From a virus, in the IMG/VR virus record IMGVR_UViG_3300046170_000090, positions 1 to 33,157 of that record: a DNA stretch of 33,157 bases; one strand, written 5' to 3'. Below, piece after piece: positions 9,280 to 33,157 of this stretch. Numbering within the stretch: the first letter of the stretch is position 1; the number at the start of each line of letters is the position of its first letter. Position numbers and translations under genes: made by a program. A model generated the notes under the pieces. That model was not told the DNA's origin, ran no database searches, and saw nothing but the letters and a program-made list of their open reading frames with translations.

Positions 9280-12200
9280 ATGTCAATTCCTTTAACTAGA
9301 AAATATCAAAATATTTACGATAAACTTGTAAATCCACAAACGGAAGAAGAACAAGAAGCTAAAGAAAACGAAGAGTTAGCTTCTATTTATGCTCGTTTAC
9401 ATGGTGGAGCTACTTCTAAACAAGAAGAACCGTTAGGTTATGAAACTAATATAGGTCAAATTTACAATAAAATAGATCAAGGTGTAGGTGTACCCTCCAT
9501 TAGGACTGGTAAAAAAAGTTTAACAGACCTTGCAAATGATGATGAGTTTTCTAAAACTTCGCAAAGATTTTTAGAAAGTATTGGTTCAAACGATAATATA
9601 TTTGAATACTTAAGAGATGCTGAATACAGTTTAAGCTCTGCTATTGTTAGGGCTAAACAAGCAAATGACTGGACAGAACAGCAACAACAAGACTATAGTT
9701 ACTTAACACAACAATTTCAAAATTCAAACTTAAAAGGTGTTAAAGAACACTTAGGATTAATTAAAGATTTAGGCATTGATATAGTTTTTGATCCTTTAAA
9801 TGCTTTGGCTTTATTATTTTCAGTACAAACTGGTGGTGCAACTTTAGCAGGTAAAGCTGCTTTAACTGAAGCTGCTAGACAAGGAACTAAACAATTAATA
9901 ACACAATCTGTTAAGAGTGCTAAACCATTAGCTGCAGTAACAGCAGCAGAAGGAGCTACTTGGACAGGACTACACGATTATTTTTTACAAGATATCGAAG
10001 TAGATACAGACATGATTGATAACATAGATTTAAATCAAACTGCGTTCTCAGGGTTGTTAGGTGGTTTAACTGGTGGTATTTTAGGCGGTGGGATAGGTGC
10101 TGGGGTAGCTGCTCGTCAAGGTTCAAAGTATGCTAAGTTTGTTGAAAAAGAATTTAAGTATGCTAATAATTCTGATATAGATTTTGTAGGTCCCAGAACT
10201 AGAGAAGAAGTAGAAACAGATTGGAAAATTGATCAAGAATTAAATGTTGAATCAACTTTAGGTCCTGAAGGAGAAGTTACAGAAGAAACAATTGCCAGAA
10301 TTGATAAATCTAAGCCAAGTGTTAGAACCGGTTTAAACTTTTTATTTGGTAAATCTACGTCTGAAATGGTACAGTTTGTAGAAGACGAACCTTTAATAGG
10401 AAACTTTTTAAGAAAACTAAGATATGATTGGGATGCTGGTATTTTAAAGGAAGGTACTGAAGGAGCTACTAAAGCTAAACTAGCAGATGGTACTGAATCG
10501 GTTAGTACATTCGGTGAGTTTTATGGAAGACTTCATGGTAAATATATCCCAGCACTAGCTAAAATTTTTGATCCTATTGGATACAGTGGTTTTTTTGGTA
10601 AACTAGAATCTAAATCTAATAAAGTTTTAAATATTTTATTAAGTGATAAAAACTTGACAGTTAATAATGTAGATAATAAAATTGTAAATGGTCAATTTTC
10701 ATACAAACAAATGACTAGAGTGGATGGTAAAAATGTTGTAGATCAAACTTCGATAGATGTCAGTCCTGATATAATTCAAGCTTATAAAGGTTTAAGAAAT
10801 TTATTAGATGAAGGATATGTAGATGCAAATACTGTTGGATTATTTAGAACTGGAACAATTAGAAAAGCTGGTTTCTTTCCTAGATTATATAAGTATGACC
10901 AGTTAGATCAAAACAAAGAAGAGTTTGCAGATATATTAATTGCTAAAGGACATGCTAACCCTGTTAATGAAAAAGATTTAATTGATGTAGAAATTACTAA
11001 CGTAGATGGTAGTACTTCAATTGTACAGGGTAGTAGGAAAGGTCAGCTTGGTAAAGATGAAGAAATTTTTAAAGATGCTAATGGACAAGGAATGGACTTT
11101 TTAGATTTAGCAAACGGTGATGAAGCTGTAGCTAAACAATTAAAAGCTTACAAAATTATAGATGATATGTTAGCTGAAAGACATACTCCATTTGAACTAA
11201 GAGTAAAAGGAAAAAGTAATTCTACTGGGTATTTACAACCAAGAAGATTTGTAGATATTGAAGACTGGGAAATTTCTAAGTTTTTAGAAGATGATGTAGA
11301 AGTTATTTTAACGAATTACTTTACAAATTTATCACAATCAATAGCACGTAAAAAATATTTTGGTGCAACATTAGCTGAATTTAATAAATTAGAATTAGCA
11401 CCTATTATAAATAGAATGTTATCTGCAAAAAATAAAGATGGATCAAAAAAATATAGTAGAGCAGAAATTGATAAAGTTCAAAATGGATTAACTAGGATTT
11501 ATAGTAGAGCTACAGGTTTAGAAACATTTAGTAATTCACAATTAAATAAAAATAAATATTTAAGAAAAATTAAAGATGGTATTATTTTAAGTCAACAAGC
11601 ATCTTTACTTCCATTTGCTACTTTATCTAGTATTACTGAGCCTTTAATTTTATTATCAAGAGCTGGTGGTACTGACGGTCTTAATGTCGTTCAAGATATT
11701 GGATCAGCTATGAAAACTCAAACTGGTGCAAGTTTTGATAGGCTATTTAAGGCTATTGAAAGATCAACTGGAAAAACTACAAAAGGATTTAAAGATGTAA
11801 CCGATGAAGCGTGGGACGAAATACATCAAACAGGTTTAGCTTTTGAACAAGCTGTTATGGAAAGAATTGAAGGTTTAGCAGGGGAAGCAATAGAAAGTCC
11901 TACTATGAAAAAAATGCAAGAATTCTTTTTTAACAGTAATATTTTAGCTCCTTGGACTAAAGCAGTTCAACTAGCATCGTTTAATACTGGTAAAAGAATT
12001 ATTAAACAACATGCAGAAAAACTAGCTACAGGAAAAACTTTATCTGGTTCTACTCTTAAGACATCAGAAAAAAAACAAGTTATAAAAGAACTAAGACAGT
12101 TAGGTATTGATGAAAATGAAGCAGTTACTTGGTATAAAAAATCATTAGATCAAAATGGTTTATATGATGATAGTTTAGCTAAAGGTATAAACGGTAACGG

Positions 12201-15172: not shown

Positions 15173-15394
15173 TAACCTTGCATTTAAATGAGCTTCAATC
15201 TCATTATGAATCTTATCAAGCTTAGTAGTCGCTTCTCTTAGCACAGTTTTCAAAGTATTATACTCTTCAGGTGTAAAAAACTTTTCTAAATCTTTTATAT
15301 CTGTGCTGGTTCTTTCGGTGACCAGCTTACCAGTTAAGTCATAAAACAAAGTATAGCTTACAAGCTTTGCTTCTGTGCGTTTAGTTCTGCTCAT
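15164..15394 (-). CDS. Small protein after nrdB, unknown function
   Basis: Start chosen at the ATG at 15394 (MSRTKRTEAK), which overlaps the 3' end of nrdB out of frame and has AGGA about 6 nt upstream; a longer frame from 15409 is possible. About 76 residues with a beta-like start (KLVSYTLFYDLTGKLVTERT) and a helical C-terminal half. Terminal gene of the leftward operon; its stop overlaps the convergent + strand gene. No family recognised. Confidence 0.6.
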   Translation of the reverse strand: MSRTKRTEAKLVSYTLFYDLTGKLVTERTSTDIKDLEKFFTPEEYNTLKTVLREATTKLDKIHNEIEAHLNARLLS

Positions 15395-15857
15395 CACCAA
15401 TCCTTGCAAAACTTATTTTGTCTTGTCTACCACGTAGTCCTGCTTTCATGTAAGAAGTAGCACGACCTTCAAAGAAGTTCTGATGTTCAACACCCATAAC
15501 TTCATCCAACCAACCTAGAGGATTCTCACGTTGGTCATAGTTTGTTTTAAGACCAAGCTGTAGTAATCTTCTATCAGCTATGTATCTATTGTAAGCATAC
15601 ATATCTTTCTTTGTAAGACCTTCAAGGTCTCCCATATCAAACACTAGGTCTAAGAATTTATCTTCTAGTGTTACCATCTGTCTACAAATCTCGTAGAGTT
15701 CTGCTTTAAAATCATCTGTCCATATATCTATGTTCTCTTGAATAAACTCTCTGAACAGTTTAGTCATAGCTTCAACGTGCATAGACTCATCACGTATAGA
15801 GTAAGTAACTATCTGTCCCATACCTTTCATCTTGCCGAACCTTGGAAAGTTTAACAA
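15381..15857 (-). CDS. nrdB: Ribonucleotide reductase class I small subunit, C-terminal part (frameshifted)
   Basis: This frame carries the second half of the diiron subunit: LNFPRFGKMKGMGQIVTYS, then RDESMHVEAM, which supplies the last Glu and His iron ligands (E238/H241 of the E. coli protein), and a helical C-terminus ending ARIGDEQN. Its apparent start MLNFP is internal to the domain. Skipping a single C near 15868 joins it to the upstream frame through LF-SSFAILLNFP, the normal family sequence. The full product would be about 328 residues, in the usual range. It reduces ribonucleotides together with NrdA to supply dNTPs for phage DNA synthesis. Confidence 0.88.
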   Translation of the reverse strand: MLNFPRFGKMKGMGQIVTYSIRDESMHVEAMTKLFREFIQENIDIWTDDFKAELYEICRQMVTLEDKFLDLVFDMGDLEGLTKKDMYAYNRYIADRRLLQLGLKTNYDQRENPLGWLDEVMGVEHQNFFEGRATSYMKAGLRGRQDKISFARIGDEQN

Positions 15858-15867
15858 GATTGCAAAG

Positions 15868-16365
15868 CTACTGAAACAACTGTAGTCCTTCTGTAAAGGC
15901 TGAATAGACTGCTAAAGTTTTTGCAATACTCTTCTTATCTTTCTTGATGGTCTTGATGTTATGTACGTACTCGTGTTTATCTGCCATTTCTTCGTACTCT
16001 GCAAAAGCTTTGTACTCTATCTCAGGCATACCAACTGTATCAAGGAGTAAGCTGTAAGCATGTTGATGGATAGACTCCATGTTTGCAAACGAACCCATCA
16101 TCATTCTAGCTTCAGGCTTTCTAAAGATACGCATGTATCTATCAACATAACCTGCACCAACATCTACATCAGATTGAGTAAACAATCTAAATATTTGTGT
16201 AAGTAAGTTCTTTTCTTTTGAATCTAACTCTTGCCAATCTTTTACATCTGTATGTAGTGGTACTGACTCCGGCATCCAATGCATTTGGTTTTGTAAGACA
16301 TAGTAGTCAAACATCCATGGGTTGTCGAAAGGTTTGTAGTAATCTCTTGTATCTAATAAACTCAT
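15868..16365 (-). CDS. nrdB: Ribonucleotide reductase class I small subunit, N-terminal part (frameshifted)
   Basis: 165 residues beginning MSLLDTRDYYKPFDNPW. It contains QSDVDVGAGY (the first Asp ligand region), NMESIHQHAYS, where E-x-x-H are iron ligands and the Tyr four residues after the His corresponds to the radical-bearing Tyr122, and AFTEGLQLF with the third Glu. The frame then ends with Q* because of a one-base shift just after TTGTTT. The start ATG overlaps the stop of the 59-aa gene upstream (ATGA). Presence of the Tyr supports a tyrosyl-radical class Ia-type enzyme. Confidence 0.88.
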   Translation of the reverse strand: MSLLDTRDYYKPFDNPWMFDYYVLQNQMHWMPESVPLHTDVKDWQELDSKEKNLLTQIFRLFTQSDVDVGAGYVDRYMRIFRKPEARMMMGSFANMESIHQHAYSLLLDTVGMPEIEYKAFAEYEEMADKHEYVHNIKTIKKDKKSIAKTLAVYSAFTEGLQLFQ

Positions 16366-30953: not shown

Positions 30954-31337
30954 TTAATAAATCTTTATAACTGAAGTTGGATATTCTTTACAGGTATTCA
31001 TCATATCTGTAAGTAATTTCATAGCAGTATCTACACTACCATGACCATTCTCAGGATTATATTCTTTTTCTGCCCAATTTTTAAACCAATCATGATTTAT
31101 ATCTGATTGATTAAATGTTCTAACAGCATTGTTTAAAACAAACCAAGCATCTTTACCAAGCATACCATAAAAACCATTGATACCTACTTCACCCAAACCC
31201 TCATCTTCAAAGTTCAAAAACTGTCTAAAGAATTTAGATAAATTCCAAGTGTGATTAAACTCAGCAACAGTTCTGTTAAAAGTATCATCACCACGAACAT
31301 CTTTATATTCGATTTCAAATTTAATATCATAACTCAT
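30954..31337 (-). CDS. Early protein, unknown function
   Basis: 127 residues with a ribosome site AGGAGAAAATT. MSYDIKFEIEYKD, WNLSKFFRQFLNFEDEG, GFYGMLGKDAWFVLNNAVR and HGSVDTAMKLLTDMM are the visible blocks. The alternation suggests an alpha/beta fold. No match recognised. Confidence 0.65.
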   Translation of the reverse strand: MSYDIKFEIEYKDVRGDDTFNRTVAEFNHTWNLSKFFRQFLNFEDEGLGEVGINGFYGMLGKDAWFVLNNAVRTFNQSDINHDWFKNWAEKEYNPENGHGSVDTAMKLLTDMMNTCKEYPTSVIKIY

Positions 31338-31351
31338 AATTTTCTCCTAAA

Positions 31352-31639
31352 TTAAATTGTTTCAATTACCCAAACAGTTCCCATCTCCATTGTATTATCA
31401 TTAAGATAATCAAATTTAGATGCTAACTTTACCCAAGAATTTTTGAAGTTCTTGTATAACATAGCTCTATCCTCTTTGAACGAATAGACTTCTTGATACC
31501 TATAACCCTCTGATTTTAGGTATCTTTTTGCTTTCTCTTGATCATTGAAGCTAACAATAATTCTATGTTTAGCTTGTTTGACTTGATCAAATTTATTTTG
31601 AGCCAAGGCTCTGTCAGATTTATTCAATCGTTTTTTCAT
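31352..31639 (-). CDS. Early protein, unknown function
   Basis: 95 residues, basic: MKKRLNKSDRALAQNKFDQV, then KHRIIVSFNDQEKAKRYLKS and SWVKLASKFDYLN. RBS TTTGGAGATAAATT. The strand-helix pattern RIIVSFND..KAKRYLKSEGYRY could be a small RNA- or protein-binding fold; no family named. Confidence 0.6.
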   Translation of the reverse strand: MKKRLNKSDRALAQNKFDQVKQAKHRIIVSFNDQEKAKRYLKSEGYRYQEVYSFKEDRAMLYKNFKNSWVKLASKFDYLNDNTMEMGTVWVIETI

Positions 31640-31666
31640 AATTTATCTCCAAATAAATATTTTGAA

Positions 31667-31680
31667 TCGGCTTGTGCCGA
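31667..31680. promoter_or_regulatory. Small GC-rich hairpin in the leader of the 95-aa gene
   Basis: TCGGC (31667-31671) and GCCGA (31676-31680) with a 4-nt TTGT loop, standing out in AT-rich DNA, about 30 nt upstream of the start codon. Role unknown. Confidence 0.45.
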
Positions 31681-31690
31681 ATGCTTTTAC

Positions 31691-31719
31691 ACTTTCCCAC
31701 ACCTCGAACCGAAAGTCAA
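31691..31719 (-). promoter_or_regulatory. Promoter-like P3 (repeat copy B)
   Basis: TTGACT (complement 31714-31719), 17-nt spacer, GAAAGT as a poor -10. Same upstream sequence as P2. The -10 is weak, so activity would depend on a regulator or it may be vestigial. Confidence 0.35.
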
Positions 31720-31733
31720 GCCCATGTATAATT
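31698..31733. repeat. 36-bp direct repeat, copy B
   Basis: Matches 30651-30686 with two differences. The neighbouring sequence on both sides is unrelated, so only this promoter module has been duplicated or conserved. Confidence 0.8.
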
Positions 31734-31783
31734 AGTAAAATATAAAAAAATTAATAAAAGTTTTTATTATTTTATGTACCTTT

Positions 31784-31813
31784 TTATAATTTTTACTGTA
31801 CCTTTTGTGTCAA
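31784..31813 (-). promoter_or_regulatory. Promoter for the 95-aa/127-aa gene pair
   Basis: TTGACA (complement 31808-31813), 18-nt spacer and TTATAA (complement 31784-31789); a 17-nt spacer gives ATTATA. It is embedded in very AT-rich DNA and directed at the gene starting at 31639 with a leader of about 140 nt. Three phased repeats lie immediately upstream. Confidence 0.6.
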
Positions 31814-31854
31814 TTATGTTACAATTATGTTACATTTTGTAATAATTATGTGAC
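31812..31854. repeat. Three helically phased AATTATGTKAC repeats
   Basis: AATTATGTTAC at 31812-31822 and 31823-31833, and AATTATGTGAC at 31844-31854. Start-to-start spacing is 11 and 21 bp, about one and two helical turns, so the copies face the same side of the DNA. They abut the -35 box of the promoter at 31784-31813. Likely binding sites for an activator, repressor or initiator. Confidence 0.65.
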
Positions 31855-31962
31855 ATTTTAGTTAAAATCGCCCTCAACTACCGACCCAAGCTTATAATTT
31901 TCCCCTATAATAATTTATTTAGATAGATAAATATTTAATTAACTATTTATTTAGAGGGTATG
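31855..31962. other. AT-rich intergenic DNA, no gene seen
   Basis: Contains almost no G or C between 31900 and 31955 apart from CCCC near 31909, with repeated CTAAATAAAT-type strings on the - strand. Candidate DNA-unwinding element when taken with the adjacent phased repeats. Confidence 0.4.
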
Positions 31963-32067
31963 GGCTCTTTAAAACACCACACTTCAAGAAAGTTTAGGTG
32001 TCAAAGCCCCCACCAAGGTAAAGAGCCACAAAACCTGTGAGACTTTAGGCTCATGTGAGGTTTTGTG
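31963..32067. ncRNA. Structured intergenic element (possible regulatory RNA)
   Basis: Three nested or adjacent pairings: GGCTCTTT (31963-31970) with AAAGAGCC (32020-32027); ACACC with GGTGT inside it; and CACAAAACCT (32027-32036) with AGGTTTTGTG (32058-32067). The elements lie in series, unlike random AT-rich DNA. Strand and function are unknown; it lies between a terminator and a promoter. Confidence 0.4.
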
Positions 32068-32089
32068 ATTATAACCCGACTTTGAAGTC

Positions 32090-32129
32090 AAAAAAAATCC
32101 CCAAAGTATATTGAATACTTTGAGGATTT
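32090..32129 (-). terminator. Rho-independent terminator after the 121-aa gene
   Basis: Arms 32095-32109 and 32115-32129 pair 14 of 15 positions around a 5-nt loop. Read leftwards, the hairpin is followed by eight U (A-run 32090-32097). It starts 10 nt after the stop of the gene at 32140, so the two right-most genes form their own transcription unit. Confidence 0.8.
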
Positions 32130-32139
32130 AGAAGTTTGA

Positions 32140-32505
32140 TTATGAACTAGCTTTCGCTGGTGCTACATAATCATTAGCTGATTTTACTAAAGCTTTAGCA
32201 AAAGCTCTATCAAACTTCTGCGATTCTTTAGCATTATGTATCATTTCAGATACTTTATTTTTAGTTAATGATTTATTAGCTGGAATAAAAGTATTATAGC
32301 AATGAATCGCTAATTTACCTTTCAAAGGACCAGCTTTTAAACCAAAGTTAATATAATCATTATTAGCATCAAGCTTTTTCATAGATTTAGTGATGCTCTT
32401 TTTGAGTACATCACGATATAAAGCTATGAGATAATTTACTTGCCTATCGGTAGCCATGCCATCTTTATTAGCTTGAATGCTTTCGTGTGTTGTTTTATAT
32501 TCCAT
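32140..32505 (-). CDS. Early protein, unknown function
   Basis: 121 residues, basic and Lys/Ala-rich. Blocks: ATDRQVNYLIALYRDVL, NDYINFGLKAGPLKGKLAIH and NKVSEMIHNAKESQKFDRAF. The T-x-x-Q-x-x-YL helix occurs in many small phage proteins of unknown role. RBS AAAGGAGAAAATT. Ends in a short Ala/Ser tail. Confidence 0.65.
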   Translation of the reverse strand: MEYKTTHESIQANKDGMATDRQVNYLIALYRDVLKKSITKSMKKLDANNDYINFGLKAGPLKGKLAIHCYNTFIPANKSLTKNKVSEMIHNAKESQKFDRAFAKALVKSANDYVAPAKASS

Positions 32506-32686
32506 AATTTTCTCCTTTGTTATTTGAAATATTAGTTAAGCTTTCCATAACTTTATAGTTATTAGAAAACACCTTCAATCTGCTTTGGTTAAGATATATG
32601 ATAATATCCAAAGCTTTCATGACTGATTGACACTCATAAGACTTTTGAGTCTCTGTGTCGTAAATATGTATAATTAAATGATTCAT
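32495..32686 (-). CDS. Small early protein, unknown function
   Basis: 63 residues, MNHLIIHIYDTETQKSYECQ..., beta start then helix MKALDIIIYLNQSRLKVFS. RBS CAGGAGAATAAC. First gene of the right-most leftward unit; overlaps the next gene by 11 nt. The pattern (strand, Y, then helix with IIIYLNQS) is unassigned. Confidence 0.55.
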   Translation of the reverse strand: MNHLIIHIYDTETQKSYECQSVMKALDIIIYLNQSRLKVFSNNYKVMESLTNISNNKGENYGI

Positions 32687-32709
32687 GTTATTCTCCTGTT
32701 TATAACTAA

Positions 32710-32737
32710 ATTATACATGAATGAATAATGGTTTCAA
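32710..32737 (-). promoter_or_regulatory. Promoter for the right-most gene pair
   Basis: TTGAAA (complement 32732-32737), 16-nt spacer and a consensus TATAAT (complement 32710-32715), about 24 nt upstream of the ATG at 32686. First promoter of the leftward early region. Confidence 0.65.
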
Positions 32738-33157
32738 GTATCAAGTGCTTGAGTTTTGAGTTATCTTGTGAAACCAGATAATCTCAAAAGTTTTATAGAT
32801 TTTTTAGCAGCCAGTACGAGTCTTCGAAGTCCTGGCAAGTGTAACGACTAAAAAATCTGTAAACACTTGAGACTTTGAAAGCTTATGAATTTCATTAACC
32901 AGTTATTAACAGGAGAACATGTACATCTATACATACTTTTAAGACTCAAAAGTCGCATAATCAATCAGTCATGAACTTAGGAAAGCTTGAAGACTTTGAA
33001 GACTAAAAGAAACTATATAAAACAACACTAAAGATGCTACCGATAGGCTATGAACTTCAGTACTTATAAGGACTTCAGAGTCTTTAAGGTGTATATTTGG
33101 CTATTGTTGACAGACTTCAAAGTCTATGGGGTGGTGGGCAGGAGACCATACCCTATA
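32738..33157. other. Non-coding right end with palindromic repeats
   Basis: No credible gene in 420 bp. Holds a nested inverted repeat (32797-32858) and several GACTTYRAAGTC-like palindromes (32943-32954, 32992-33003, 33071-33082, 33112-33125). Candidate origin, packaging end or regulatory region. Confidence 0.5.
32797..32858. repeat. Nested inverted repeat (cruciform-like)
   Basis: AGATTTTTTAG (32797-32807) and CTAAAAAATCT (32848-32858) form an 11-bp outer stem; GCCAG (32810-32814) and CTGGC (32832-32836) an inner one; the apex contains the palindrome CTTCGAAG. It does not behave as a simple terminator because it is long and branched. Confidence 0.65.

Follow-up and report, generated by a model that had tools for sequence, protein, structure and literature searches.

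The 33,157-bp window analyzed here is an entire IMG/VR record. The genes recognized in this record encode a primase-helicase, a PolA-type DNA polymerase, an endonuclease, a Cas4-type exonuclease, and a ribonucleotide reductase. The nearest cultured primases are those of the Pelagibacter phages HTVC104P, HTVC103P, and HTVC115P (45-46% identity), and the gene order SSB, primase, polymerase, ribonucleotide reductase is common to the window and HTVC115P. RNA polymerase, sigma factor, and DnaA were not recognized among the searched proteins of the record, a tRNA scan of the record found none, and Rfam gave nothing near a gathering score. Searches with PHROGs and Pfam recognized no initiator, helicase loader, or Rep gene in the record, in agreement with an earlier sequence-only reading, which had recognized no initiator gene in the window. 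The records of some relatives reach 51-55 kb and no head or terminase genes were recognized in the window, so the window is probably a fragment of a larger genome. In a search for a near-identical cultured phage, neither blastn of 31000-33157 against 50,697 phage records nor tblastn with a homologue of the 95-aa protein described below returned anything. The small subunit of ribonucleotide reductase is divided between two adjoining open reading frames (15868-16365 and 15381-15857, within 15381-16365), for which a frameshift, an intron, and a sequence error are candidate causes.

The features of the locus are collected in Table 1. Structure models of the 95-aa and 121-aa proteins that border it have pLDDT values of 75 and 72, respectively, and a PDB fold search with both models gave nothing at E<=0.001. 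Neither protein could therefore be named as an initiator, and no DNA-binding fold was recognized in either neighbor. Beyond the locus, the start of the 121-aa gene and the region of a 63-aa gene recur at the right end of the record as a decayed, inverted copy (32433-32807 and 32848-33057), in which at least six pairs of complementary 13-22-nt arms mirror one another in order around ~32,800-32,830. A GACTTTGAAGTC-like palindrome is present in many copies near this end, within 32078-33125 (32078, 32640, 32942, 32992, 33113, and others).

Table 1. Features of the array locus, with positions in the window
Feature	Position	Strand	Remarks
95-aa gene, downstream of the array	31352..31639	-	alpha/beta model; query for finding relatives
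Small CGGC hairpin, 5' leader of early transcript	31667..31680	-	also in relatives
Conserved leftward promoter position	31691..31719	-	TTGACT (31719-31714), 17-bp spacer, degenerate -10 GAAAGT (31696-31691)
AT-rich easily melted stretch, 92% AT, candidate unwinding element	31728..31787	.	second least stable 60-mer of the record
Two GGTACA elements, 22 bp apart	31775-31780, 31797-31802 (31775..31802)	-	in several relatives too
Five-unit phased array	31802..31855	-	TGTCACATAAT, TATTACAAAA, TGTAACATAAT, TGTAACATAAT, TGACACAAAAG, left to right in early-gene direction
Weak, doubtful sixth unit TTTAACTAAAA	31856..31866	-	chain search restricted to 10/11-bp steps
G box GGGTCGGTAGTTGAGGGCG	31869..31887	-	conserved next to arrays of all types; consensus over 37 loci
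AT-rich easily melted stretch past the G box, 88% AT	31893..31952	.	least stable 60-mer of the record
121-aa gene on the upstream side of the array	32140..32505	-	all-helical model; 89-93-aa proteins at the same place in other relatives

The sequence AATTATGTKAC occurs exactly at 31812, 31823, and 31844 on the plus strand, with spacings of 11 and 21 bp, just as the sequence-only reading had described. No further copies were found in the window with up to one mismatch allowed, and three copies at this tolerance is an ordinary count window-wide (shuffled mean 2.83). What is unusual about the copies is their clustering and phase, not their number. The repeats are real, but the array that contains them is longer than had been described, with five units and a weak sixth. 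The five units follow one another in steps of 11/10/11/11 bp, counts that are partly set by construction because the segmentation permits 10- and 11-bp steps only, and the periodicity rests on self-similarity and on lag-11 scans. Self-similarity at lags of 11, 21, and 32 in 31795-31865 was above that of 500 dinucleotide shuffles (P about 0.002), and the wider stretch 31760-31870 gave a P of about 0.004 against dinucleotide shuffles. The top lag-11 stretch of the whole record, at 31792, scores 0.62, and the next scores 0.48. Phased DnaA boxes (TTATNCACA) are absent from the array of the window, and TTATnCACA occurs in the window only at 1486 and 14393, both outside the array.

The sides of the array hold the two least stable 60-bp stretches of the 33 kb, so that the extreme AT-richness noted earlier is present on both sides. 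The left-hand stretch sits between the array and the conserved promoter, and the right-hand stretch is set apart from the array by the GC-rich box at 31869-31887. An early promoter whose -35 element touches the repeats had also been proposed. The elements exist (TTGACA, 16, AATTAT at 31813-31786), but such a pattern gave 19 matches in the scanned region compared with 20.4 in shuffles, and the -35 is lost in the close relative L114. The conserved promoter lies instead at 31719-31691, about 90 bp further along, and features TATAAT at the -10 position in relatives such as L140 and L147.

Relatives were defined as viral loci that encode a homologue of the 95-aa gene, 25 at first and 70 with an alignment, and the presence and type of an array were assigned by reading the upstream DNA of each locus. 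An array is found upstream of the homologue in 48 of the 70 loci (38 distinct and 10 near-duplicates). The other 22 are without an array; some of these are cut short, and L158 among them has a degenerate version. The comparison with related phages suggested by the sequence-only reading thus revealed that most keep the array and that its loss in close relatives is mostly not seen, with the exception of L112, which encodes a 95-aa protein that is 90% identical and has a G box with no array after it. The layout in the relatives features the G box on one side of the array and a TTGAC-N17 promoter with the hairpin on the other. The consensus of the G box over 37 loci is GGGC.G...TTGAGGGCGA, and the box is often doubled.

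Four forms of the array were found: the units of the window (A+), the same units inverted (A-), DnaA boxes (D), and a mixed form in which inverted units are followed by DnaA boxes (M). Arrays were scored for their match to the window array, which served as the reference, against shuffles. Direct matches were found at nine loci (L114 96, L138 94, L140 84, L147 78, L173 72, L152 70, L153 70, L150 62, and L156 52) and inverted matches at seven (L122 88, L163 84, L113 74, L120 72, L116 64, L172 64, and L174 58), while the DnaA-type L146 (39) and L165 (35) were not above their shuffles (maxima 46 and 47). Of the 16 window-type or mixed loci tested, 7 have an array that is inverted with respect to the early genes, and in L122 the promoter-side flank is unchanged in orientation though the array is inverted. 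On a gene tree of the 95-aa protein (38 rows and 79 columns, with many weak branches), the four labels require at least six changes, and the split between window-type and DnaA-containing arrays requires at least three. The A- loci L163 and L172 are placed inside the DnaA-type clade, and A+ and DnaA-type arrays adjoin the same 89-90-aa upstream gene. The occurrence of the array in both orientations, together with at least six changes of type, argues that it is not tied to one promoter geometry.

The relative L081, with proteins that are 83% and 65% identical, features two TGTTACAATTA arrays about 120 bp apart (9650-9955) that flank its least stable DNA. These arrays lie between early genes and not at the usual locus, which would fall beyond the end of the contig. 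No comparable array was found in HTVC104P. The early/late junction of L110 (5127-5272; HTVC104P 54126-54271) has A/T tracts in 10-11-bp phase and contains the least stable DNA of that piece, without a DnaA or TGTNACA array. L129, a relative without an array, has different, longer repeats (ATTCACGATTGCGTGGCAAATAT) upstream of its early promoter at ~1980-2130, and an unrelated-looking viral contig, L087, carries nine tandem TGTTACAAT units at ~1290-1410.

The DnaA boxes of the D-type relatives are TGTGGATAAC, with sites 2 bp apart, and such boxes were read at 13 distinct loci of the D type and 4 of the mixed type. Clusters of two or more TGTGNATAA in a span of 120 bp were found in 22 of the 70 loci, compared with a shuffled mean of 0.1 and a maximum of 1. 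The 11-bp phase of these arrays places the 9-mers two bp apart in a single direction, and the same spacing and direction are given for the DnaA boxes of E. coli oriC in the available part of PMC4451416. A wider scan revealed phased three-unit DnaA arrays in at least 120 stretches of viral contigs, which suggests that the use of DnaA by phages may be common. Among the matches listed, 119 such stretches were read; at least five boxes fall within ~700 bp in 56 of them, and in 19 a nearby 60-bp stretch is at least 85% AT. The DnaA array of L363 has a leftward early gene on one side and, on the other, rightward genes read as terminase-type. In L363 (1728-2000), L390, L341, L378, and similar contigs, phased DnaA boxes, a GC-rich run, and a triplet-periodic stretch occur in succession, the last of which we take to resemble a DnaA-trio unwinding element.

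Duplex stability was compared at 36 of the 38 typed loci, with L115 and L121 left out because they do not have a standard G box. At 26 of the 36, the 60-mer with the lowest stability in the locus is no more than 250 bp from the array (A+ 12/12, A- 6/7, D 8/13, and M 0/4). The sequence-only reading had also named GC skew as a check, and the skew does switch sign at the array in four 20-kb genome pieces. Gene direction also switches ~1.7-2.3 kb from the array, and for this reason third-codon skew was compared on same-strand genes at 26 loci, a set that leaves out near-duplicates, loci with too little upstream sequence, and five loci that are either a near twin of the window or from the same record as L181-L184. 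Upstream genes give G666:C779 (binomial p=0.003) and downstream genes G1554:C1192 (p=5e-12), p-values that are optimistic because the genes are related by descent. By locus, G is below C upstream in 17 of the 26 and above C downstream in 24 of the 26; the skew on the upstream side is weak and comes from two gene families.

From what is observed at the locus, we infer that 31690-31960 has an even chance of serving an uncultured marine podovirus-like phage as its replication origin, which makes this the most likely of the readings considered. It is favored by an array that is significant, unique in the record, and at the same place in 48 of the 70 relatives, and by its replacement in many of these by DnaA-box arrays with the spacing and direction of E. 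coli oriC. The same reading is favored by an array that is found in either orientation next to a fixed promoter-side flank and that has changed type at least six times, by the melting minimum near the array in 26 of 36 loci and the record-low stability of the flanks in the window, by the change of skew sign at the array in both the long pieces and the third-codon comparison, and by the two arrays that flank the least stable DNA of L081. Of the two possibilities that the sequence-only reading had offered, an array for a regulator and iterons for an initiator together with an unwinding element, the comparison favors the second. Counting against an origin are the failure to recognize an initiator or helicase loader in the record, the lack of a melting minimum at the array in all four mixed and 5 of the 13 D-type loci, and the weak upstream skew from two gene families, with G<C in 17/26 loci. 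The loci without such an array (L112, the 22 of 70, and HTVC104P) and the match of the window units to bacterial Pho boxes also count against it.

In the proposed mechanism, a protein would line up along the 11-bp-phased units, which share one face of the DNA, and would help to melt the flanking AT-rich DNA, which would let the primase-helicase and DNA polymerase of the phage load. In many relatives the binder would be host DnaA, as suggested by arrays in which DnaA boxes all point one way at two-bp spacing. The units of the window differ (TGTNACATAAT), and their binder may be a host PhoB/OmpR-type regulator or an unrecognized phage protein.

The main rival to an origin, which we consider somewhat unlikely, is that the array is a multi-unit Pho-box-like operator through which a host PhoB/OmpR-family response regulator would control phage transcription, a reading that would tie infection to phosphate status and in which DnaA would likewise act as a transcription factor in the DnaA-type relatives. 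The Pho box is an 11-bp direct repeat, and tandem 11-bp TGTNACA-type direct repeats are present in the array of the window. This is the main rival because the same units occur at phosphate genes of Methylophilaceae: tandem TGTNACANAAW was found in 5 of 100 genomes of this family, once just upstream of phoB (with PhoB above the cut-off) and three times between genes read as pstS and phosphate permease, so that four of the five are at phosphate genes. The tandem was also found in 8 of 21 SAR86-family genomes, where a reversed control pattern gave 0 matches. The SAR86-family sites adjoin small secreted proteins, a receptor-like gene, and others, and four SAR86 genomes have a single strong PhoB-like gene without such a box in its promoter. 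These tandems in both families, four of them at phosphate genes, make a PhoB/OmpR-type protein a good candidate for binding the units of the window. The geometry of a Pho box, with a fixed orientation and a -10 element ~9-10 nt downstream of the last heptamer, was seen only in L122 (once) and L081 (twice, at both arrays), where a -10-like hexamer follows the last heptamer by 9 nt in an activator-like manner that counts against an origin. A simple activator is disfavored by the inversion relative to the early genes in 7 of 16 tested loci, by the lack of a -10 at a fixed distance in the A+ group of the window, and by the conserved promoter that lies ~90 bp further on, and the replacement of the units by DnaA boxes in relatives also speaks against a Pho operator. 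CtrA and MtrA are members of the OmpR family. Both are named in the accessible text of PMC8488378 and serve as precedents for response regulators at origins.

An operator for an unrecognized phage-encoded repressor or activator of the early operon is improbable. The array does lie upstream of the first conserved early promoter, and there are several small early genes, including that of the adjoining 121-aa helical protein, but neither neighbor has a recognized DNA-binding fold, the A+ and DnaA-type arrays share their 89-90-aa upstream gene, and an array of DnaA boxes requires no protein from the phage. A packaging (cos/pac) site, to which the terminase small subunit would bind, is very improbable, even though the G box is conserved and often doubled and L181-L184 have a gene read as that of the terminase small subunit ~1.7-2.3 kb from the array, since two small genes lie between the array and the terminase; additionally, we know of no packaging role for DnaA boxes. 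A CarH/LitR operator was rejected on its motif, as inspection found TnnACA missing in four of the five window units.

Returning to the origin, a further and rather unlikely extension is that it is host-programmable, with a fixed scaffold of G box, melting DNA, and promoter and an exchangeable, flippable array through which different host proteins license replication. If this were true, some phages would be licensed by DnaA, others by a PhoB/OmpR-type regulator of the phosphate response, and those with mixed arrays by both; phage replication would be linked to the cell-cycle or phosphate state of the host, and the type of array would predict the licensing host protein of each phage. The start of replication in phages without their own RNA polymerase or a recognized initiator is poorly known in uncultured marine lineages, and no paper on such arrays in these phages was found in the open-licence literature. 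With the rest of the setting constant, a switch of the array between DnaA boxes and Pho-box-like units would be a natural experiment on what an origin requires.

The locus resembles several known systems. Iteron origins of the P1 oriR and lambda ori type have units of about 17-22 bp. The window shares with them phased direct repeats that adjoin AT-rich DNA, and in the mixed arrays L174-L180 iteron-like units stand together with DnaA boxes; unlike iteron origins, the units of the window are 10-11 bp, no Rep- or O-like gene was recognized, and the units are exchanged and inverted between relatives. The CarH/LitR operator is also built of direct repeats of 11 bp in tandem, among which a -35 element can fall, with a unit of nnnnTnnACAn in the available part of PMC9304148; on inspection, a single unit of the window array fits this form, the one that bears TTGACA. 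The likeness to the Pho box of PhoB extends from the 11-bp direct repeats to the TGTNACA core, and one window unit, TGTCACATAAA, is identical to a unit at the OM43 phoB promoter. The array differs from a Pho box in that it has at least five units, occurs in either orientation, has no conserved -10 spacing in the group of the window, and is interchangeable with DnaA boxes. Unlike E. coli oriC, the window array has no DnaA boxes, and the phage has its own primase-helicase, a conserved G box, and no recognized DnaA gene. The D-type relatives, on the other hand, are like oriC as described in the available part of PMC4451416, with directly repeated DnaA boxes that point one way at 2-bp spacing, a mixture of strong and weak sites, and easily melted DNA alongside.
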